NCBI RefSeq assembly: GCF_000002985.6 | Contig: NC_003283.11 | Location: 6,014,001 to 6,078,000 of the forward strand | DNA from: Caenorhabditis elegans | Taxonomy: Eukaryota > Nematoda > Chromadorea > Rhabditida > Rhabditidae | Direction: 5' to 3' | DNA length: 64,000 nucleotides | In this document: positions 2,200-64,000 of the stretch, piece after piece | Layout: every line of letters begins with the position of its first letter | How positions within the stretch are numbered: the stretch's first letter is position 1 | Notes under the pieces: model-generated | Databases searched by the model: none | The model's input: the letters and a program-made list of their open reading frames with translations, nothing else | Told to the model about the DNA's origin: nothing | Translations under genes and position numbers: made by a program

Positions 2200-3668
<1,469 letters not shown>

Positions 3669-3974
3669 TCTAGAAAATAATGATTTTATATGAAAAATAA
3701 TAAGTCCACGTTTGAAAAAGAAAACAATTGAAAGATATAAAATAAGTAGAACGAAGAATGATTTAAAAAAATACAGCGTTGATGATGACAATGCAAGCGC
3801 GCTCTGGTGAGAACTAAACAACGCGCGGTTTCGTATTTTCGGAGCTTCGTTGTTTTTATTGACGAAGCCACATGTCTGTTTTATTCAGAAAATCTAATTT
3901 TTCAATTGATTTTTAAGTATTTTCAGCGTTTTAAAGTTTGCAAACGATTGTTCATACTCTTGTTTTCAGTAAAC
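3669..3974. promoter_or_regulatory. Divergent promoter between rpt-2 and aps-1
   Basis: This 306-bp gap is the only spacer between two head-to-head housekeeping genes, so it must hold both promoters. Probable spliced-leader acceptors sit at each end: TTTTCTAG just before the rpt-2 ATG (minus strand) and TTTTCAG at 3963-3969 just before the aps-1 ATG. A GC-richer patch (AAGCGCGCTC, ACGCGCGG near 3793-3830) lies in the middle of otherwise AT-rich DNA. No TATA box was identified. Confidence 0.6.
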
Positions 3975-4750
3975 ATGATGCAATACATGCTTCTCTTCAG
4001 TCGCCAGGGCAAACTGCGGCTGCAGAAATGGTACACTGCTTACCCCGACAAGGTAAGTGTATTTCCTATTCATATGTGTAATTTCACACTCAATTTTCAG
4101 CAAAAGAAGAAAATTTGCCGCGAACTCATCACTCAAATTCTGGCGAGAAAACCGAAAATGTGTGCGTTCCTCGAATACAAGGATTTGAAAGTTGTCTACA
4201 AACGGTTCGTATTTTATATTCAAAAGTAACAACTCCCATTTCCTGTCATGCCTTAAAATTGTTCCTTCTGAAAATAACTTACAAGTTTATAATCAAAATT
4301 TCTTGAAAATTATAGTTACACACCTAAATCCGAAGTTATTACGTTTTTTATTCATGAAAAATATTTTGGCGTCAAATTTAGTTGTTTAATAGACATTTTT
4401 GTGATAAATGAAACAAAAACTTAACAATTCGTTCAATTTTTAATCTCAACAATTTCAGATACGCGTCTCTGTATTTCTGCTGCGCCATCGAACAAAACGA
4501 CAACGAGCTCATCACTTTGGAAGTCATTCATCGTTACGTAGAACTCCTCGACAAATATTTTGGAAGTGTTTGTGAGCTGGATATCATCTTCAACTTCGAA
4601 AAAGCTTACTTCATACTCGACGAATTTTTACTGGCTGGTGAAATCCAGGAAACCAGTAAAAAACAAGTTTTGAAGGCGATTGCTGCCCAAGATCTCATTC
4701 AAGAAGAAGAAACTCCACAAGGATTCTTCGAGGATCACGGTTTGGGATAA
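3975..4750 (+). CDS. aps-1: aps-1, AP-1 clathrin adaptor sigma subunit
   Basis: Exons 3975-4052, 4101-4204 and 4459-4750 join in phase to a 157-aa protein, the usual size of AP sigma subunits (about 158). It begins [20 protein letters not shown] and contains the family signature [46 protein letters not shown] (in part). Sigma1 is the small core subunit of the AP-1 complex, which sorts cargo between the trans-Golgi network and endosomes. The first of two adjacent ATGs is used as the start; the TTTTCAG six bases before it is a likely SL1 trans-splice site. The second intron (254 bp) is AT-rich with no other feature. Confidence 0.95.
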
Positions 4751-51506: not shown

Positions 51507-53140
51507 CTAGCCTCCATTTACAGCACTACTCTGGTGCCTCGATTGACTGCTTGAGAGGAAAGACACGTCACGAATCGACATATTTCGTGGAAAGAAAATT
51601 GAGTGAAGCTTTGATCTAGCGAAATTGAGCAACGGTCGGGTGAACACAATCATCGCCAGTGTGCTCATTGCTCCATGAAGAGAAGCTAGCACGATTGCCA
51701 CGTAGCCAACATCTGTAGTCTGAACATTTGATTTGAATCAGAAAATAATTATTACCATTTCCATCAAAATGAAAAACTATTGAAGTCATATAAACAAACA
51801 ATGGGAATCCTAACATAACTCCATGTACTCCAATTTGACAGAATAAACTAATCAGAAATCCTCTGTGCATCGAAATTGTCCTCAACGATGAACTGCATTC
51901 TCTAACCATTTCTCGAAGAGCCAATAACGATACCGATCCCATTGTTGCACAAAGAATACTTCCAACAATTATTGACACAAAAACAGAGGCATTAAATAAG
52001 TGAATAGGTTTAATATCTGTTGAAGATTTCGGAAGTGTTACAGCCGACGTACAGGTTAATTCGGGAAATTCGTTGATGATCTGAAGCATGAGAGAAGAGT
52101 TAAAATTGCTGACATCATGGTTTTTCACAGTATTTGTGCTAAAAATTTTAGTGACGTCTAAAGATTCCTAATTTTTCAGAGCTTTATACCCATTTGATAG
52201 AAAGTTGTTTGAATTTTACTTTTTTCCGATTTCAACAAAAGAAATTGAGCTGTAAAATTTCTAATTTTTGTAATTACCCCTAGCTGAATTATTATTTTGT
52301 TGGTATAAATTCAAAGAAGAGAGCTACACATAGAGTTACGAGAGTTTTTGTTATATCATACGCCTGGGTCTCACCACGCAGAAAACGAGAGACTGTATGT
52401 AGATTCTCATGTAGCTTCCTAACTATGCGCATGGCGAGACCTTCCATTAGGATATGGAGAATCGTCTCATTCTTACTATTAGAAGTGCGTAATAGCAACT
52501 TTAATATGAATCGATAATTCAAATGGAAATTATTTACTTATTTTATTACCTCTAATTTCTCTTTATGAGCAGTTTGATCAAACATTCCTGTAATACCAAG
52601 CAACAGGAAACAAAACGTGCAAGAAGAGAAAACTATCAGAATTCGTCGTACATTTTTAACGAAAACTGAACTTTTTGCAATCCAAATTGAAGTTACTGTA
52701 TTACTTGAAATTAATTTGAATCGAAAATATAAAAGCTCAAGAATGGACCATCCAGTTGAGGCGATAAAAAGATACATAATACAAAATGAAATAAAACCAT
52801 TGATATAAGTTAGAAAAAATGCACCAGAAAATCGAATTACTGGGTACGGTAGGTAGAGAACTGGCTTCATTACAACAGAAAGATGAAATTCAAACAAAAA
52901 GTTGCTAATAACATGAGTTGCCAAGTATCGCTTATAAATTTTGAAGTTTTGAGATTTTTCAGCGTATAATGTGTAAAATGCCATAATATAAATCGGAAGA
53001 GCAATTAAATGTGCCATAGCCAAACCCATACTGTAACAGATTGGTGCTGGTTTTTTACATATCTCTCTGTTATCATAGATAAGGTCCATCCATTCTTGAA
53101 AAGAACGTGAAAATATAGATATTTCAGGGAAGAATCCCAT
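51507..53140 (-). CDS. Serpentine receptor of the Str superfamily, srh/sri-like
   Basis: Exons 53140-52550, 52080-51778 and 51719-51507 join in phase to 368 aa. Seven hydrophobic segments are visible. TM1 is AMAHLIALPIYIMAFYTLY, the second segment ends VVMKPVLYLPYPVIRFSG, and the last extracellular loop/TM7 is VAIVLASLHGAMSTLAMIVFTRP. This matches the LHG-x-x-ST-x-x-MI-x-x-x-x-P ending of srh/sri receptors. The exon-2 donor was chosen at GTTTTTC so that the SLHG frame is entered; a GTAATA donor 22 bp further 3' would put exon 3 out of frame. It is presumably a chemosensory GPCR; sri and srh cannot be separated by eye. Intron 1 (469 bp) holds no gene. Confidence 0.82.
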
Positions 53141-53815
53141 TTTAAAAATAAATATGATCTTTTAGATACCTCTAAGAGTACATGGAAGTTTATGACAGCG
53201 ATCAAACTGAATTATAAATGGCGGGTTGCACAAAATTTAATTCCAATCCTTCGAATGTTTTATTCGGCGAAAACTCTTAGGAGTCAAAGATTAAAATTTT
53301 CAAGAATTCATTCGGAGAAAAGATGATTTTATTTTAATATCATGCTTCGTTGATGTTGATTTTCCAGTTATACTGATAAGGAAGGCGCATTTTGAAATAC
53401 ATAATATAAAAACAAAAGATCAGAGTTCAAAATCTACTTGGAAGCTCTTAAAACGCCTGGTGTGGCATAAAATATAGAACATTTTGTGCTGAAATACTCG
53501 CATTTCAACTGAATCAATTTTCATTGATGTTCTTTTTTCTTTTAATTAAAAAATTGAATTGTTGTAGTGATAACTATTTATTGGCTCAAAATGTCTATAC
53601 TGCACCGGCGTTCTTCTTATTAATTTAAAGCAAATTTTCTAAAATTTTGATTAATTTTTCAGTCAGCTGACAAAGATACGGTCAAATGCTTCTGAGAACT
53701 CTGTGAATGAACATTGTCAGTTTGGAATGCGATTCATTGAAATACGATTTATTTCTTGAGCACGAGACAATGAAATAATCACAAAAGTTCACATTTTCCT
53801 TTTTGGAATCTTATT
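53141..53815. other. Intergenic gap between the receptor and the F-box gene
   Basis: 675 bp of AT-rich sequence with no supported gene. It contains the promoter of the receptor and the 3' end of the F-box gene, both on the minus strand. Confidence 0.5.
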
Positions 53816-56068
53816 TCAATAAAAGCTTATTGGCATCTTATTTCGCAGCTTTTTGATCTTCAAGTATTTTTGACAGACGACTACGATGAATTCGTCCTCG
53901 TTAGTATGCAAACTAGCTTTGTAAATAGCATTGTCGTTTGATTCATCGGAGTTATCTTCATCTTCTTCATTATCTTCCGCCAAAAAATCCATATCAATTC
54001 CAACGTCGAAATCAATGGCAAGATTACTACCAACGTCTGAAGCTCCAGAATGTACACTAGTTTGGCCAAAGATACCGGCGATTTCACTCGGGTTTGGAAT
54101 GGCTGCTCGGATCATGCCCATTCTCAAGGTTGAAGAGTTCACAATAGCCTGTAATTATAGTTAAGATTATCAATTGGGCTCCACGTAATAGGAGCGCGCT
54201 TGCACTTATACTCGAACACATATTATATTCTAGTGTTTAAGCCAATATGTCAACTCTTTGTTCACTTACATCGTGTATTTTCATAGCACCAGTGGTTGTA
54301 AGTTTCTCTACCGGTATATCGAAATGTGTCAAATGAATGATATTATCGATCGGCACAGAAAGATGATATGGTGCTTTTACTTTAACAATCTTCAATTGTT
54401 TCCAATGATCCGTTTTCATAATATACGAAAGTTGCGAATCGACGATATTGGCGTATAGATCGCTCAGTATTCCAGGTGTGAATGATTGCATCATCGTAGC
54501 AATTTCCTTGTTCAAAAATCCAGCAAACGAGACTGTGCAAATTCTACTGTTCTTCATCTTCTTGAAAGAGGTTTCGAGCAAATTCCAATTTGAATTTCTG
54601 ATCTCTTCATCACGTACAAGTTTTAATTGAATGTAATCCACCTGATTATTGGGATTGTTGAACAATAATTCGACCTCTCTCATAGCAACCTCCAAATGGC
54701 TCGCTTCCTCTTTCCTTGACTTTCTATTTTTCGCAGATGTTGGGAATTGGTAGACGATACCATTTTCATCCGAGTAATCAATATAGAATACTTCGCTCTG
54801 TGCAATGGTACCGGTGTCAAAAATATCCAGGGCAATGGAACCCGTCTTCAAATCAAAATTGTCCACAAGGTCTCGGATACCAGTTGAAGTATTTCGCAGA
54901 ATCGTCCTAAAATGTAAACTTCAATAAGTTTAGGACATTTAATTTTAAAGAGAAGTGAATGACCAGAAATTACTGAAACTCAAAGTTTGGGTACCTGGCA
55001 GGGATGTAAATCAAGAACATGGTCAAGTTTTCAAGCACCCTTCAAAGTTCAAGAAATGAACGAAAATGTTTGTTTTTTTTTCTAAAAAATATTGAGTTGG
55101 ATTTGAGTTGGAGCAGAAACCTTTAAGCCTTTTCAAATCATCAAACAGAAAAGTTTCAAGCTTTTAAGCGCTTCGAGCTTCAATCGTTTACACCCCCGGC
55201 TCCTAGACTAACCTATATAACAAAGGAAACACGAGAAAACTTGTAGAAAGGGAGAAAACCACAGTTAAGTTTACTCACATTTTTTCATAATCCAGATTTC
55301 CAATGATTTTCTTCACAAGATCTATGGGAACATCAGACAGTTGGCGGGTTTTCTGGTCGAACCTGAAATATCTAGATGTAATTTTATATATTTTAATATC
55401 GAATGCAATTGTACTTTTCTGTGATCTTTTCAAGAGTTCTCTAATAACGATTCATTATGTGCTGATTCATTATGGGCTACATTTCTCATTAAAAAAAATT
55501 AACTCGCAAACTTGCGATAATCTTGCCCATTAAATAATCAAAAAGAATGTATATTTCTTGGAAAATTTGGAAATTTCTCCTCCGTAAGTATACAAGCTTC
55601 ATAAATGGGCACTTTACCGTCTTAAAAGTTTAATTATAATAGATTTTAAAAGAAGGGACTTTAAGGATTCTCACATTTACGCTTGTAAATCGCAACAAGT
55701 TAGGCCTAACACCTTGATTGGCCAGAAGCAAAACATCAGTGCATGACTGACAGAGACTATAATCAAAATACTTGAACGAACTGCTTTGGTGCGCTATTTT
55801 TGAACATTTCATGGTAACTAGATTTTCGGCAGTGTCTGGAGTCACTTACTTGATTCCAGATTGTACGTTATCATTATTCAAATGATAATATAAGTAATCA
55901 TATTCTCGATAGTCCATTGTTTCACATTCAAAAACTTTGCAAAACTTTTGATATGCTTCGTAAACTGGAGTATCGCAGATTTTCTCGTAGAGAATGTGCT
56001 CGTGTCTAAAATTTTTACGTTTAAGAGCATGAACTAGTATTTAAAACTTACAAGATACTAGAATTCAT
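53816..56068 (-). CDS. F-box protein with FTH (DUF38) domain, fbxa-like
   Basis: Exons 56068-56052, 56005-55850, 55362-55279, 54906-54270 and 54148-53816 join in phase to 408 aa. An N-terminal helix-turn-helix-like segment (HEHILYEKICDTPVYEAYQ...YREYDYLYYHL) precedes the F-box at about residues 60-105 (LSDVPIDLVKKIIGNLDY...LRNTSTGIRDLVDNF). The FTH/DUF38 region spans about 120-290 (LFNNPNNQVDYIQLKL, IVKVKAPYHLSVPIDNIIHLTHFDI). The tail carries an acidic run (EDNEEDEDNSDE) at about 350. This is the architecture of worm F-box A proteins, thought to be substrate receptors of SCF (Cullin-RING) ubiquitin ligases. The start codon lies about 20 bp from a satellite array, so its promoter must be in or beyond that array. 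Confidence 0.85.
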
Positions 56069-56086: not shown

Positions 56087-57528
56087 CAAAAATAAAAAAA
56101 TGCGCACTAAAAGGTAGGGCTGAAAATGTACTATTTCTGTAACTACGTGAAGCTTCTTGTACCTACTGAAATATTGTTAATATATTCTGAAAGAGCTTAA
56201 AATTTACTACAAAGTTTCTGAAAGACATTTCAAAAAAAAAATACTTTGAAGAGATTTATGAATTTTCAAAATTTGAAAAATTCACCTATTTTTGCCTATT
56301 GATGGTAGTTTTCATTAAATAATAAAATACGCACTAAAAGGTGGGGCTGAAATGTACTATTTCTGTAACTACGTAAAGCTTCTTGTACCTACTGGAATAT
56401 TGTTAATATATTCTGAAAGAGCTTAAAATTTACTACAAAGTTTTTGAAAGACATTTCAAAAAAAACTACTTTGAAGAGATTTATGAATTTTCAAAGTTTG
56501 GAAAATCCATCTATTTTTGCCTATTAATGGTAGTTTTCATTAACTAATAAAATACGCACTAAAAGGTAGGGCTGAAAATGTACTATTTCAGTAACTACGT
56601 AAAGCTTCTTGTACCTACTGAAATATTGTTGGTAAATTCTGAATGAGCTTAAAATTTACTACAAAGTTTCTGAAAGACATTTCAAAAAAAAATTACTTTG
56701 AAGAGATTTATGAATTTTCAAAGTTTGGAAAATCCACCTATTTTGCTAATAAATGGTAGTTTTTTTGAATAATAAAATACCCACTAAAAGGTGGGGCTGA
56801 AAATGTACTATTTCTGTAACTACGTGAAGCTTCTTGTACCTACTGAAATATTGTTAATATATTCTGAAAGAGCTTAAAATTTACTACAAAGTTTCTGAAA
56901 GACATTTCAAAAAAAATTACTTTGAAGAGATTTATGAATTTTCAAAGTTTGAAAAATCCACCTATTTTTGACTATTGATGGTAGTTTTCATTAACTAATA
57001 AAATACGCACTAAAAGGTGGGGCTGAAAATGTACTATTTCAGTAACTACGTAAAGCTTCTTGTACCTACTGAAATATTGTTGGTAAATTCTAAATGAGCT
57101 TAAAATTTACTACAAAGTTTCTGAAAGACATTTCAAAAAAAATTACTTTGAAGAGATTTATGAATTTTCAAAATTTGAAAAATTCACCTATTTTTGCCTA
57201 TTGATGGTAGTTTTCATTAAATAATAAAATACGCACTAAAAGGTGGGGCTGAAAATGTACTATTTCTGTAACTAAGTGAAGCTTCTTGTACCTACTGAAA
57301 TATTGTTAATATATTCTGAAAGAGCTTAAAATTTACTACAAAGTTTCTGAAAGACATTTCAAAAAAAATTACTTTGAAGAGATTTATGAATTTTCAAAAT
57401 TTGAAAAATTCACCTATTTTTGCCTATTGATGGTAGTTTTCATTAAATAATAAAATACGCACTAAAAGGTGGGGCTGAAAATGTACTATTTCTGTAACTA
57501 CGTGAAGCTTCTTGTACCTACTGAAATA
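56087..57528. repeat. 226-bp satellite array, left part (about 6 units)
   Basis: The word AAGCTTCTTGTACCTACTG recurs at 56151, 56377, 56603, 56828, 57053, 57280 and 57506, giving a period of 225-227 bp. Each unit contains GCACTAAAAGGTGGGGCTGA and TAACTACGTGAAGC. Units differ by a few substitutions. No open frame is conserved. The array continues after the Helitron at 59275. Confidence 0.97.
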
Positions 57529-57651
57529 TCATTACTTATATATAAAAAAATAATTCCGTTTGTTCCATAGTTTGTAGTCTATGTAGTCTTTGTAGTCTGT
57601 GACGTCACACCCAAAGTCACTGAGAATTGTGGGCGGGGTCTGTCATCCTTC

Positions 57652-57991
57652 GCGGTGAGACCCATCGTGGCGAGACCCATCGTGGTGAGACCCATCGTGG
57701 CGAGACCCATCGTGGTGAGACCCATCGTGGTGAGACCCGTCGTGGCGAGACCCATCGTGGTGAGACCCATCGTGGCGAGACCCTTCGTGGTGAGACCCGT
57801 CGTGGTGAGACCCATCGTGGTGAGACCCGTCGTGGCGAGACCCATCGTGGTGAGACCCATCGTGGTGAGACCCGTCGTGGTGAGACCCATCGTGGTAAAA
57901 CCCATCGTGGCGAGACCCATCGTGGTGAGACCCATCGTGGTGAGACCCGTCGTGGTGAGACCCATCGTGGTGAGACCCGTCGTGGTAAGAC
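57652..57991. repeat. 15-bp array inside the Helitron, unit GTGAGACCCATCGTG
   Basis: About 22 copies alternate irregularly between GGTGAGACCC and GGCGAGACCC and between CATCGTGG and CGTCGTGG. The period is a multiple of three with no stop words, so every frame on both strands is open; this is not evidence of coding. Confidence 0.95.
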
Positions 57992-57996
57992 CCAAA

Positions 57997-58280
57997 ATTT
58001 TGGCGGGAAATTTAAATTTTCTGTGAAAAATATTTTGGCGGGAAATTTAAATTTTCTGTGAAAAATATTTTGGCGGGAAATTTTAATTTTCTGTGAAAAA
58101 TATTTTGGCGGGAAATTCAAATTTTCTGAGAAAAATATTTTGGCGGGAAATTTAAATTTTCTGTGAAAAATATTTTGGCGGGAAATTTAAATTTTCTGTG
58201 AAAAATATTTTGGCGGGAAATTCAAATTTTCTGAGAAAAATATTTTGGCGGGAAATTTAAATTTTCTGTGAAAAATATTT
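57997..58280. promoter_or_regulatory. 35-bp array with perfect E2F-type sites (8 copies) inside the Helitron
   Basis: TTTGGCGGGAAA recurs eight times with 35-bp spacing (GGCGGG cores near 58002, 58037, 58072, 58107, 58142, 58177, 58212 and 58247), separated by TTTAAATTTTCTGTGAAAAATA-type linker (variants in TTTAAA/TTCAAA and CTGTG/CTGAG). The core is the E2F/DP consensus; in worms it would be read by EFL-1/DPL-1 and the DREAM complex. Binding is inferred from sequence only. Confidence 0.85.
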
Positions 58281-58850
58281 CCAGAACTTTCTAGAAAAAT
58301 TGGGAAAAGTCTGGAATGTTCCAGAACTTTCTAGAAAAATCGGGAAAATTCTGGAATGTTCCAGAACTTTCTAGAAAAATCGGGAAAATTCTGGAATGTT
58401 CCAGAACTTTCTAGAAAAATTGGGAAAAGTCTGGAATGTTCCAGAACTTTCTAGAAAAATCGGGAAAATTCTGGAATGTTCCAGAACTTTCTAGAAAAAT
58501 TGAGAAAATTCTGGAATGTTCCAGAACTTTCTAGAAAAATCGGGAAAATTCTGGAATGTTCCAGAACTTTCTAGAAAAATTGGGAAAATTCTGGAATGTT
58601 CCAGAACTTTCTAGAAAAATCGGGAAAATTCTGGAATGTTCCAGAACTTTCTAGAAAAATCGGGAAAATTCTGGAATGTTCCAGAACTTTCTAGAAAAAT
58701 CGAGAAAATTCTGGAATGTTCCAGAACTTTCTAGAAAAATCGAGAAAATTCTGGAATGTTCCAGAACTTTCTAGAAAAATCGAGAAAATTCTGGAATGTT
58801 CCAGAACTTTCTAGAAAAATTGGAAAATGTTTGGAATGTTCCGAAAAATT
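58281..58850. promoter_or_regulatory. 40-bp array of heat-shock elements (14 copies) inside the Helitron
   Basis: CCAGAACTTTCTAGAAAAAT begins every 40 bp from 58281 to 58801 (14 units). Across unit junctions the sequence TTCTGGAATGTTCCAGAAC runs into TTTCTAGAA, giving up to six alternating TTC/GAA pentamers at the canonical 2-nt spacing: a near-ideal HSF-1 site. Some units carry GTC instead of the first TTC (four-base variant GGGAAAAGTC), and the spacer alternates TGGG/CGGG/CGAG. HSE-bearing Helitrons are known from Caenorhabditis. Confidence 0.93.
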
Positions 58851-59274
58851 GAGCTTAGAGCTTTAGAAGAGGTAGTTATTTGGGAGTTGATGGGGGATCA
58901 AGTCAAGGTACTGTAGTGGTACTATAGGGGTACTGTCGGTATACGGTAGGGTTACTGTAGTTTTGGAAAAATCGGCATTTCGGCCTTTGAAGAGGTATTG
59001 GGTTAGGAGTCGGTGGAGGATAATGTCAAGGTACTGTAATGGTATTGTAAGGTTACTGTTGGTCAAAAAGTAACAGAAAGTTTTCATACTGTCTGTGAAT
59101 TTTTGAAAAATGCATGTCGTAGAAAAATACATACATGTAACAGTGCCAGTAAACCGCGTTTCAAGTTTTTTTTTTTTCATGATGAGAAATTTTTTGAGTG
59201 ATTGAAGGTATGTGTGTCAAATACTTTTAATGGTGCCAGTCGTTGCCCGCGCCGTAGGCGCGGTCAGCGGCTGG

Positions 59275-62200
59275 TTGTTAATATATTCTGAAAGAGCTTA
59301 AAATTTACTACAAAGTTTCTGAAAGACATTTCAAAAAAAATTACTTTGAAGAGATTTATGAATTTTCAAAGTTTGAAAAATCCACCTATTTTTGCCTATT
59401 GATGGTAGTTTTCATTAAATAATAAAATACGCACTAAAAGGTAGGGCTGAAAATGTACTATTTCTGTAACTACGTGAAGCTTCGTGTACCTACTGAAATA
59501 TTGTTAATATATTCTGAAAGAGCTTAAAATTTACTACAAAGTTTCTGAAAGACATTTCAAAAAAAATTACTTTGAAGAGATTTATGAATTTTCAAAGTTT
59601 GAAAAATCCATCTATTTTTCCTATTAATGGTAGTTTTCATTAACTAATAAAATACGCACTAAAAGGTAGGGCTGAAAATGTACTATTTCTGTAACTACGT
59701 GAAGCTTCTTGTACCTACTGAAATATTGTTAATATATTCTGAAAGAGCTTAAAAATTACTACAAAGTTTCTGAAAGACATTTCAAATAAAATTACTTTGA
59801 AGAGATTTATGAATTTTCAAAGTTTAAAAAATCCACCTATTTTTGCCTATTAGTGGTAGTTTTCATTAACTAATAAAATACGCACTAAAAGGTAGGGCTG
59901 AAAATGTACTATTTCTGTAACTACGTGAAGCTTCTTGTACCTACTGAAATATTGTTAATATATTCTGACAGAGCTTAAAATTTACTACAAAGTTTCTGAA
60001 AGACATTTCAAAAAAAATTACTTTGAAGAGATTTATGAATTTTCAAAGTTTGGAAAATCCATCTATTTTTGCCTATTAATGGTAGTTTTCATTAACTAAT
60101 AAAATACGCACTAAAAGGTAGGGCTGAAAATGTACTATTTCTGTAACTACGTGAAGCTTCTTGTACCTACTGAAATATTGTTAATATATTCTGAAAAAGC
60201 TTAAAATTTACTACAAAGTTTCTGAAAGACATTTCAAAAAAAATTACTTTGAAGAGATTTATGAATGGTCAAAATCTGAAAAATCCACCTATTTTTGCCT
60301 ATTGATGGTAGTTTTCATTAAATAATAAAATACGCACTAAAAGGTAGGGCTGAAAATGTACTATTTCTGTAACTAAGTGAAGCTTCTTGTACCTACTGAA
60401 ATATTGTTAATATATTCTGAAAGAGCTTAAAATTTACTACAAAGTTTCTGAAAGACATCTCAAAAAAAATTACTTTGAAGAGATTTATGAATTTTCAAAG
60501 TTTGGAAAATCCATCTATTTTTGCCTATTAATGGTAGTTTTCATTAACTAATAAAATACGCACTAAAAGGTGGGGCTGAAAATCTACTATTTCTGTAACT
60601 AAGTGAAGCTTCTTGTACCTACTGAAATATTGTTAATATATTCTGAAAGAGCTTAAAATTTACTACAAAGTTTCTGAAAGACATTTCAAAAAAAAAATAC
60701 TTTGAAGAGATTTATGAATTTTCAAAATTTGAAAAATTCACCTATTTTTGCCTATTGATGGTAGTTTTCATTAAATAATAAAATACGCACTAAAAGGTGG
60801 GGCTGAAAATGTACTATTTCTGTAACTACGTGAAGCTTCTTGTACCTACTGAAATATTGTTAATATATTCTGAAAGAGCTTAAAATTTACTACAAAGTTT
60901 CTGAAAGACATTTCAAATAAAATTACTTTGAAGAGATTTATGAATTTTCAAAGTTTAAAAAATCCACCTATTTTTGCCTATTGATGGTAGTTTTCATTAA
61001 CTAATAAAATACGCCTAAAAGGTGGGGCTGAAAATGTACTATTTCTGTAACTAAGTGAAGCTTCTTGTACCTACTGAAATATTGTTAATATATTCTGAAA
61101 GAGCTTAAAATTTACTACAAAGTTTCTGAAAGACATTTCAAAAAAAATTACTTTGAAGAGATTTATGAATTTTCAAAAATTGAAAAATCCACCTATTTTT
61201 GCCTATTGATGGTAGTTTTCATTAAATAATAAAATACGCACTAAAAGGTAGGGCTGAAAATGTACTATTTCTGTAACTACGTGAAGCTTCTTGTACCTAC
61301 TGAAATATTGTTAATATATTCTGAAAGAGCTTAAAATTTACTACAAAGTTTCTTAAAGTCATTTCAAAAAAAATTACTTTGAAGAGATTTATGAATTTTC
61401 AAAGTTTGAAAAATCCACCTATTTTTGCCTATTAATGGTAGTTTTCATTAACTAATAAAATACGCACTAAAAGGTAGGGCTGAAAATGTACTATTTCTGT
61501 AACTACGTGAAGCTTCTTGTACCTACTGAAATATTGTTAATATATTCTGAAAGAGCTTAAAATTTACTACAAAGTTTCTGAAAGACATTTCAAAAAAAAT
61601 TACTTTGAAGAGATTTATGAATTTTCAAAAATTGAAAAATCCACCTATTTTTGCCTATTGATGGTAGTTTTCATTAAATAATAAAATACGCACTAAAAGG
61701 TAGGGCTGAAAATGTACTATTTCAGTAACTACGTGAAGCTTCTTGTACCTACTGAAATATTGTTAATATATTCTGAAAGAGCTTAAAATTTACTACAAAG
61801 TTTCTTAAAGTCATTTCAAAAAAAATTACTTTGAAGAGATTTATGAATTTTCAAAGTTTGAAAAATCCACCTATTTTTGCCTATTAATGGTAGTTTTCAT
61901 TAACTAATAAAATACGCACTAAAAGGTAGGGCTGAAAATGTACTATTTTTGTAACTACGTGAAGCTTCTTGTACCTACTGGAATATTGTTAATATATTCT
62001 GAAAGAGCTTAAAATTTACTACAAAGTTTCTGAAAGACATTTCAAAAAAAATTACTTTGAAGAGATTTATGAATTTTCAAAATTTGAAAAATCCACCTAT
62101 TTTTGCCTATTGATGGTAGTTTTCATTAAATAATAAAATACGCACTAAAAGGTAGGGCTGAAAATGTACTATTTCTGTAACTACGTGAAGCTTCTTGTAC

Positions 62201-64000
62201 CTACTGAAATATTGTTAATATATTCTGAAAGAGCTTAAAATTTACTACAAAGTTTCTTAAAGTCATTTCAAAAAAAATTACTTTGAAGAGATTTATGAAT
62301 TTTCAAAGTTTGAGAAATCCACCTATTTTTGCCTATTAATGGTAGTTTTCATTAACTAATAAAATACGCACTAAAAGGTAGGGCTGAAAATGTACTATTT
62401 CTGTAACTACGTGAAGCTTCTTGTACCTACTGAAATATTGTTAATATATTCTGAAAAAGCTTAAAATTTACTACAAAGTTTCTGAAAGACATTTCAAAAA
62501 AAATTACTTTGAAGAGATTTATGAATTTTCAAAGTTTGAAAAATCCACCTATTTTTGCCTATTAATGGTAGTTTTCATTAACTAATAAAATACGCACTAA
62601 AAGGTGGGGCTGAAAAGTGTACTATTTCTGTAACTACGTGAGAGCTTCTTGTACCTACGGAAATATTGTTAATATAGTCTGAGAAGAGCTTAGAAGTTAG
62701 CTACAGAGTTTCTGAAAGACATTTCAAATAAAATTACTTTGAGAGAGATTTATGAATTTTCAAAGTTTAAAAAATCCACCTATTTTTGCCTATTAATGGT
62801 AGTTTTCATTAACTAATAAAATACGCACTAAAAGGTGGGGCTGAAAATGTACTATTTCTGTAACTAAGTGAAGCTTCTTGTACCTACTGAAATATTGTTA
62901 ATATATTCTGAAAGAGCTTAAAATTTACTACAAAGTTTCTGAAAGACATTTCAAAAAAAATTACTTTGAGGAGATCGAGCACGTTTCCGAGTTCGTGGAC
63001 TCCGCCGATTCCTGCCTAGTTGTTGGTAGCCGCCCTCAATTCCTCACATCCGCCCTGCCGGGTGCGGCTGGTGATGTGCCAGTTGTGCATCTACGGTGAG
63101 CTTCCTCACCCTACTGGCGTAGCGCTTCACAGCCCGCGATCGAGTCGAGAATCCAGTCGTGCGTGTCTGAAAGACATTTCAAAAAAAATTACTTTGAAGA
63201 GATTTATGAATTTTCAAAGTTTGGAAAATCCATCTATTTTTGCCTATTAATGGTAGTTTTCATTAACTAATAAAATACGCACTAAAAGGTGGGGCTGAAA
63301 ATGTACTATTTCTGTAACTACGTGAAGCTTCTTGTACCTACTGAAATATTGTTAATATATTCTGAAAGAACTTAAAATTTACTACAAAGTTTCTGAAAGA
63401 CATTTCAGATAAAATTACTTTGAAGAGATTTATGAATTTTCAAAGTTTGAAAAATCCACCTATTTTTGCCTATTGATGGTAGTTTTCATTAAATAATAAA
63501 ATACGCACTAAAAGGTAGGGCTGAACATGTACTATTCTTGTAACTACGTGAAGCTTCTTGTACCTACTGAAATATTGTTAATATATTCTGAAAGAGCTTA
63601 AAATTTACTACAAAGTTTCTGAAAGACATTTCAAAAAAATTACTTTGAAGAGATTTATGAATTTTCAAAGTTTGGAAAATCCACCTATTTTTGCCTATTG
63701 ATGGTAGTTTTCATTAAATAATAAAATACGCACTAAAAGGTAGGGCTGAAAATGTACTATTTCTGTAACTACGTGAAGCTTCTTGTACCTACTGAAATAT
63801 TGTTAATATATTCTGAAAGAACTTAAAATTTACTACAAAGTTTCTGAAAGACATTTCAAATAAAATTACTTTGAAGAGATTTATGAATTTTCAAAGTTTA
63901 AAAAATCCACCTATTTTTGCCTATTAATGGTAGTTTTCATTAACTAATAAAATACGCACTAAAAGGTGGGGCTGAAAATGTACTATTTCTGTAACTAAGT
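59275..64000. repeat. 226-bp satellite array, right part (about 21 units, continues past the window)
   Basis: The same unit as at 56087-57528 continues to the window end. Two subtypes can be told apart: type G (CTATTGATGGTAG...TTAAATAATAAA) and type A (CTATTAATGGTAG...TTAACTAATAAA). Between about 60.3 and 62.4 kb they mostly alternate. The private variant TCTTAAAGTCATTTC occurs at 61351, 61803 and 62255, exactly 452 bp apart, showing dimeric higher-order amplification. Confidence 0.97.
62971..63165. repeat. Aberrant GC-rich satellite unit
   Basis: This segment occupies the place of one unit and keeps the register (flanking AAGCTTC words at 62872 and 63326 are 454 bp apart, two units). It aligns with the normal unit almost without gaps: most G/C positions are retained (CTGCCTAGTTGTTGGTAG against TTGCCTATTAATGGTAG; CTACGGTGAGCTTC against CTACGTGAAGCTTC), whereas about half the A/T positions are changed, mostly to G or C. 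The preceding unit (62610-62745) also carries many extra G residues. Confidence 0.7.

Follow-up and report, generated by a model that had tools for sequence, protein, structure and literature searches.

Adjoining E2F-type and heat-shock-element arrays in a Caenorhabditis elegans Helitron: a possible regulatory module of the RepHel promoter

ONSEN, a heat-activated Arabidopsis retrotransposon, carries stress sites in its own promoter, and parvovirus-type S-phase promoters carry E2F sites in theirs. Both work in a manner like that considered here, but they belong to different element classes and to separate families. Much closer are the heat-responsive elements HelitronY4_CE and Helitron1_CE of Caenorhabditis elegans (Garrigues 2019, PMC6927752; Schreiner 2019, PMC6765114), which are of the same class as the element described below and carry tandem heat-shock elements (HSEs). 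These HSEs are reported to be bound by HSF-1 (PMC6927752), and RepHel mRNA is reported to rise on heat shock in an HSF-1-dependent manner (PMC6927752, PMC6765114). In the main texts of these two papers the term 'E2F' occurs once each, in the reference list, and 'EFL' not at all; 'DREAM' and 'LIN-35' do not occur in the main text of PMC6927752.

The repeats within such elements have been described separately. Satellite families of 11, 15, 34 and 40 bp were reported together in 2015 for a single HelitronY4_CE at I:7868158 (PMC4595182), and in 2023 complete Helitrons were described as having satellites of 15 and 32 nt next to their gene (PMC9918286). Both accounts are given without a transcription-factor reading, and neither main text contains 'E2F' or 'heat shock'. 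At least 20% of EFL-1 binding sites are reported to lie in transposable elements, a figure given in aggregate (Garrigues & Pasquinelli, 2022, PMC8896005), and in the accessible part of that paper we saw no pairing with HSEs. LIN-35, LIN-36 and LIN-15B have been reported at repeats (PMC8552245); LIN-35/DREAM peaks beyond promoters and enhancers are described as falling largely in repeats, many of them marked by H3K9me2. From the main text of a ChIP-seq study of worm Rb/E2F (PMC4053757) the terms 'repeat', 'repetitive' and 'transpos' are all absent, and neither this study nor PMC8572725, as far as the accessible text of each extends, contains anything on Helitrons. Plant transposons, Helitrons included, are reported to multiply E2F sites (Henaff 2014, cited via the review PMC12595863). 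The plant case differs in that mostly MITEs with 10-bp motifs are involved, and the accessible text of the review does not mention tandem arrays, HSEs or a transposase promoter (PMC12595863).

What is in print is piecemeal: HSE-bearing Helitrons with HSF-1, co-occurring satellites, EFL-1 in transposable elements and LIN-35 at repeats. In the literature within reach, which excluded most subscription papers and all supplements, we found no paper on E2F/DREAM sites and HSEs in one Helitron or on an E2F array in a RepHel promoter; the old repeat name RcS5 likewise led to no paper. Helitrons and EFL-1 are mentioned together in a single Caenorhabditis paper there (PMC8896005), and Helitrons and LIN-35 likewise in one (PMC5395297). 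Within the literature searched, a joint reading of the arrays as a RepHel promoter with two inputs and units of DREAM type appears to be new. The original prediction for this locus knew of no description of the pairing. Within the literature searched this holds for the transcription-factor reading, but the co-occurrence of the satellite families had been printed in 2015 (PMC4595182).

The element and its insertion site

The stretch of DNA analysed, referred to as the window, comprises 64,000 nucleotides of C. elegans chromosome V (V:6,014,001-6,078,000). The Helitron spans V:6,071,529-6,073,274 on the forward strand and is 1,746 bp in length (Table 1). Helitrons have a 5' TC and a 3' CTRR, and the termini read here are TC at 57529-57530 and CTGG with its last base at 59274. 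The CTGG is preceded by a hairpin; folding of the final 45 bases gives -31.6 kcal/mol. Insertion took place between A and T, without a target-site duplication, inside a satellite of 226-bp period. The two flanks, when joined, give an exact 40-mer with 16 occurrences in the flanking satellite, and this represents the empty site. The ends, the hairpin and the A|T insertion bear out the earlier identification of the element as a Helitron. A domain search listed no RepHel protein within the window copy.

The first 120 bases at the 5' end are 100% identical to a copy at I:7868166. The element at I:7868158 has been named HelitronY4_CE (PMC4595182), and through this 5'-end identity we infer that the window copy is of the HelitronY4_CE type. 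Internally, a 15-bp array is followed by an E2F-type array and an HSE array, after which the element passes directly into its 3' hairpin end. The 15-bp array of 23 copies, the two ends, the host satellite and the copies of the same layout elsewhere in the genome are features beyond those noted in the original prediction.

Table 1. Features of the Helitron and its surroundings (positions in the window)
Feature	Position	Strand	Basis or remark
F-box A2-like gene, HTH_48 and FTH exons, apparent ATG 56068	54237..56068	-	own gene model; ATG and splice sites read from sequence
226-bp satellite, left of insertion	56090..57528	+	repeat finding
Complete non-autonomous Helitron, HelitronY4_CE type (inferred)	57529..59274	+	ends, empty site, 5'-end identity
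Helitron 5' end, one TGACGTCA word at 57600	57529..57649	+	90% identical to 5' end of autonomous Helitron1_CE (L049)
23 tandem copies of a 15-bp unit with consensus TCGTGGTGAGACCCA	57650..57994	+	also in other copies
35-bp array, 8 units, TTTGGCGGGAAA in each (putative E2F/CDE word)	57997..58280	+	period 35, 8.1 copies, 95% match
40-bp tandem array, 14 units, almost unbroken HSE	58279..58842	+	period 40, 14.1 copies, 96% match
3' portion, through the terminal hairpin to the closing CTGG	58843..59274	+	fold and end motif
226-bp satellite, right of insertion, runs beyond window	59275..64000	+	repeat finding

The two arrays and their copies in the genome

The original prediction of eight evenly spaced E2F-type sites directly followed by 14 HSE units is confirmed. 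The word TTTGGCGGGAAA occurs eight times at 35-bp intervals, against 1.3e-5 occurrences expected from base composition, and GGCGGG is present in all eight units. Outside the Helitron, with both strands searched, the rest of the 64-kb window has only two occurrences of GGCGGGAA, and TTCnnGAAnnTTCnnGAA is absent from it. In the adjoining array 94 of 112 pentamers match nGAAn or nTTCn in a single phase, with mostly alternating orientation; the highest count among 1,000 shuffles was 13. Chance occurrence of the E2F and HSE words was considered and is ruled out by the composition expectation, the shuffles and the reversed controls given below. The HSE array was predicted to be of the HSF-1-responsive Helitron kind. 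The array is real and belongs to a kind reported to be HSF-1-bound (PMC6927752); in the window copy it is a putative HSF-1 site. The E2F word is likewise real, and for EFL-1 a share of at least 20% of sites in transposable elements is reported (PMC8896005).

The E2F-DP (CDE) word has been given as BSSSSS and the LIN-54 (CHR) word as TTYRAA (PMC5683655). In the window copy TTYRAA, a putative LIN-54/CHR word, follows GGCGGGAA in seven of the eight units. It does so in 105 of 120 cases in the regions L029-L048, which are 20 regions chosen by their Helitron 5' end with the window copy among them, and in 24 of 25 cases in L049, a region containing an autonomous Helitron1_CE. The gap between GGCGGGAA and TTYRAA is nearly always 0 or 1 base, and the spacer from GGCGGG to TTYRAA is mostly three bases in the Y4 type and two bases in Helitron1_CE. 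An E2F unit with an adjoining LIN-54-type word in most units suggests a candidate DREAM site, the recurrence of TTYRAA being weak evidence because it lies in an AT-rich linker of homologous units. A function of the array in E2F binding is putative.

The genome searched comprised 100,286,401 bases in seven contigs. Exact TTTGGCGGGAAA words number 2,704, against seven for a reversed control, and close pairs number 1,218 against none. A query of 376 bases spanning the E2F/HSE junction gave 389 matches, 40 of the 696 candidates being scored, and E2F words together with HSE cores were present at all 20 junction-query loci (18 distinct stretches, the window copy included). The exact letters of the junction occur at two places only, since the junction of other copies is slightly different. 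A junction query selects for both arrays, and hence copies were sampled separately by the 5' end alone, taking the best 20 of 40 listed matches (40 of 338 candidates scored; window copy included). Of these 5'-selected regions, 19 show the order 5' end, 15-bp array, E2F array and HSE array inside one element. The fusion, which had been thought unusual, is therefore the usual layout among the copies examined. A one-off fusion in a single element can be rejected, and the paired arrays appear to be characteristic of the family.

Some variation is seen among these regions. In one of the 19 (L047) three alternations of the 15-bp and E2F blocks precede the HSE array, and in another region (L043) the E2F array is built of the 32-bp unit type. 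The one region that departs from the common order, L038, has a 5' fragment truncated by inverted satellite, and the HSE array found there comes from another fragment. With 40 of 463 candidates scored, at least 22 near-full Helitron 3' ends were counted, that of the window copy among them. At seven of the first eight loci from the word search (six of seven distinct stretches, two loci overlapping) the E2F words have no HSE core within 1.5 kb. We also note that in L037 (V:7,915,300-7,925,200) the HSE array extends over at least 5.9 kb, with about 147 units of 40 bp.

Conservation of the E2F word was compared with that of its linker. In a doubled-unit profile the 12-base word deviates by 5.6%, compared with 10.7% elsewhere, and the core deviates less than the linker in 16 of 20 arrays. 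We rely on this version because the figures from the HMM depend on its phase: over all units the core deviates by 2.3, 2.6 or 1.4% and the linker by 5.7, 4.4 or 9.6%. With equal copy weights and the window copy omitted (19 copies), the 12 core columns deviate by 4.1% and the 23 others by 9.2% (permutation p = 0.041). A word no more conserved than its linker would have spoken against the prediction; the comparison does not refute it, but the margin is small. When the 12-base window is rotated, eight of 34 positions deviate less than the E2F core, A-rich stretches of the linker being conserved equally or better, and under most variants of the test the C of GGCGGG varies in 12-16% of cases. Conservation of the E2F word above the linker is accordingly modest. 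For the HSE array the triplets deviate by 11.3% and the spacers by 15.4% (p = 0.053, 18 copies).

These figures bear on a rival reading, in which a minisatellite gained at the Helitron end by replication slippage or rolling-circle errors carries the E2F-like word passively. The array would then have no E2F role, and the HSE array alone would matter. The modest core conservation and the well conserved A-rich linker stretches would fit such an origin, as would the adjoining of three unrelated arrays and the wide variation of unit numbers from copy to copy. Retention of the word at unit lengths of 32 and 35 bp, in autonomous and non-autonomous elements alike (chosen by the 5' end except for L049), argues against it, as does the reported presence of EFL-1 on transposable elements (PMC8896005). 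We consider a purely passive word unlikely.

Autonomous elements and the RepHel promoter

A near-complete Helitron_like_N domain, in two pieces, was found by domain search at six loci on chromosome II. Six complete Helitrons, all on chromosome II, have been reported, and ZK250.10, one of six RepHel genes, is counted as a pseudogene (PMC9918286). L049 covers one chromosome II Helitron1_CE from its 5' end into the RepHel gene. Its TC end is 90% identical to that of the window copy over 120 bases, and the 3' end of the window copy has no match to L049. On its own strand the order is TC end, 15-bp array, 32-bp array with 25 GGCGGGAA words (element coordinates 190-1015), HSE cores (1219-1830), TGACGTCA words (1393-1620, with a further one at 72), TATATAAGG and ATG; the TATA-like box TATATAA is at 1854 and the apparent start ATG at 1898.

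At all six chromosome II Rep domains, pairs of GGCGGGAATTCAAAT of the 32-bp type lie 1.8-3.1 kb upstream on the same strand; searches for such pairs, like those for close pairs, select on the word and cannot show its conservation. At nine places, all six RepHel loci among them, the block of L049 that follows the E2F array, with the HSEs, the TGACGTCA words and the TATA-like box, recurs with at least 99% identity. Five of the six RepHel loci have its full 851 bp, and at II:856217 the match covers 574 bases and lacks the TATA end. Since these copies are near-identical, the six RepHel loci amount to one evolutionary observation. In the 4 kb read upstream of a diverged RepHel relic with one stop (X:16948899-16949498) there is neither an E2F nor an HSE array, and the layout is therefore not universal to worm Helitrons.

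Two further observations concern L049. At 4336/4335 on the reverse strand two Helitron1_CE apparently lie head to tail, with hairpin and CTGG passing directly into TC, a pattern such as would arise from rolling-circle tandem transposition. The autonomous element carries five TGACGTCA words upstream (L049 2709-2943 and 4257-4264, reverse strand) and the window copy one, at 57600. We take TGACGTCA to be a CRE/bZIP-type motif, and these words are a possible third regulatory input.

We propose that the arrays form the regulatory, upstream half of the RepHel promoter and that non-autonomous copies of the HelitronY4_CE type have carried them along; we hold this to be narrowly probable. The HSE half of such a promoter is supported by the published HSF-1 work. 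Heat would fire the promoter through the HSE array, and DREAM occupancy would shut it in resting soma and allow expression in the germline, a tissue in which reproduction genes are reported to be promoted by LIN-54 and EFL-1/DPL-1 (PMC3093354). An S-phase timing would suit the rolling-circle replication of Helitrons. The 5' order shared with autonomous elements suggests that non-autonomous copies keep the module by descent from the promoter end; they would inherit the switch and incidentally deliver it near host genes. The pairing reads better as a transposase promoter than as a device of host genes.

In an alternative reading the E2F/DREAM array is chiefly a handle by which the host silences the element, with DREAM and synMuv B proteins nucleating H3K9me2, and the HSE array is the means by which the element bypasses this. 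HPL-2, LIN-13, LIN-61, MET-2 and H3K9me2 are reported to be strongly associated with Helitrons, many of which are upregulated in lin-13 mutants (PMC5395297), and Helitrons are enriched at the nuclear membrane. An element would gain nothing from multiplying its own silencing sites unless these also activated it in the germline, and Helitron families are not named in the accessible text of the DREAM paper. We regard a chiefly silencing role as somewhat doubtful.

The abundance of the sites would also permit them to act as decoys. The 2,704 exact E2F words and the more than 10,000 HSEs reported in five Helitron classes (PMC6927752) would supply these in number, and such a role has been suggested for sites in transposable elements generally (PMC8896005). 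Copies in heterochromatin may be unavailable to the factors, and we think a decoy role very improbable.

A wider form of the promoter reading is put forward tentatively. Here Helitron1 and Y4 elements would possess a two-key promoter, licensed by E2F and LIN-54 in cycling germ cells, off in resting soma and fired by heat through the HSEs, and promoter-only derivatives would have spread it genome-wide, so that part of the reported overlap between worm HSF-1 and E2F may be Helitron-borne. If this is true, an animal rolling-circle transposon would have its activity linked with the cell cycle or germline in addition to heat, and a concrete DNA target could be named for the reported presence of Rb/DREAM on H3K9me2-marked repeats. 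Co-occupancy of HSF-1 and E2F in the worm may then be confounded by repeats.

The neighbouring gene and satellite

The gene to the left of the insertion has an exon (55846-56040) matching Pfam HTH_48 (3e-6) and another (54237-54920) matching FTH (3.4e-16). The exon at 55275-55451 is F-box-like by eye and matched no Pfam family. We assign the gene, from its predicted domains, to the F-box A2 class, which has 30 members including fbxa-215 (PMC12062965). Only some 20 bp separate its apparent ATG from the 226-bp satellite, and the Helitron lies upstream. HSF-1-bound Helitrons upstream of fbxa-215 are reported to affect thermotolerance and fertility (PMC12062965).

It could be supposed that the window copy has been co-opted as an enhancer, placing this neighbour under joint heat and cell-cycle control. 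The Helitron begins 1.5 kb from the apparent ATG and its HSE array is about 2.2-2.8 kb away, and for fbxa-215, of the same class, tuning by HSF-1-bound Helitrons immediately upstream has been reported (PMC12062965). On the other side, 1.4 kb of satellite separates the Helitron from the gene, and fbxa-215 expression is reported to be lowered by heat and to be unchanged at 20 degrees after deletion of its Helitrons (PMC12062965). Co-option at this locus seems quite unlikely.

The 226-bp satellite extends from V:6,070,090 to about V:6,094,815 (6,078,601-6,087,999 not read), first in direct and then in inverted orientation. This satellite (L038 1-6815) may hold another Y4-type element, split into two pieces with about 2 kb between them. 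One piece, at 819-1682, consists of HSEs and the 3' half, and the other, at 3488-4105, of the 5' end, the 15-bp array and two E2F words. Further to the left in the window, at 51616-53161 on the reverse strand, is an srh-family chemoreceptor gene in which Pfam 7TM_GPCR_Srh is matched in two exons.
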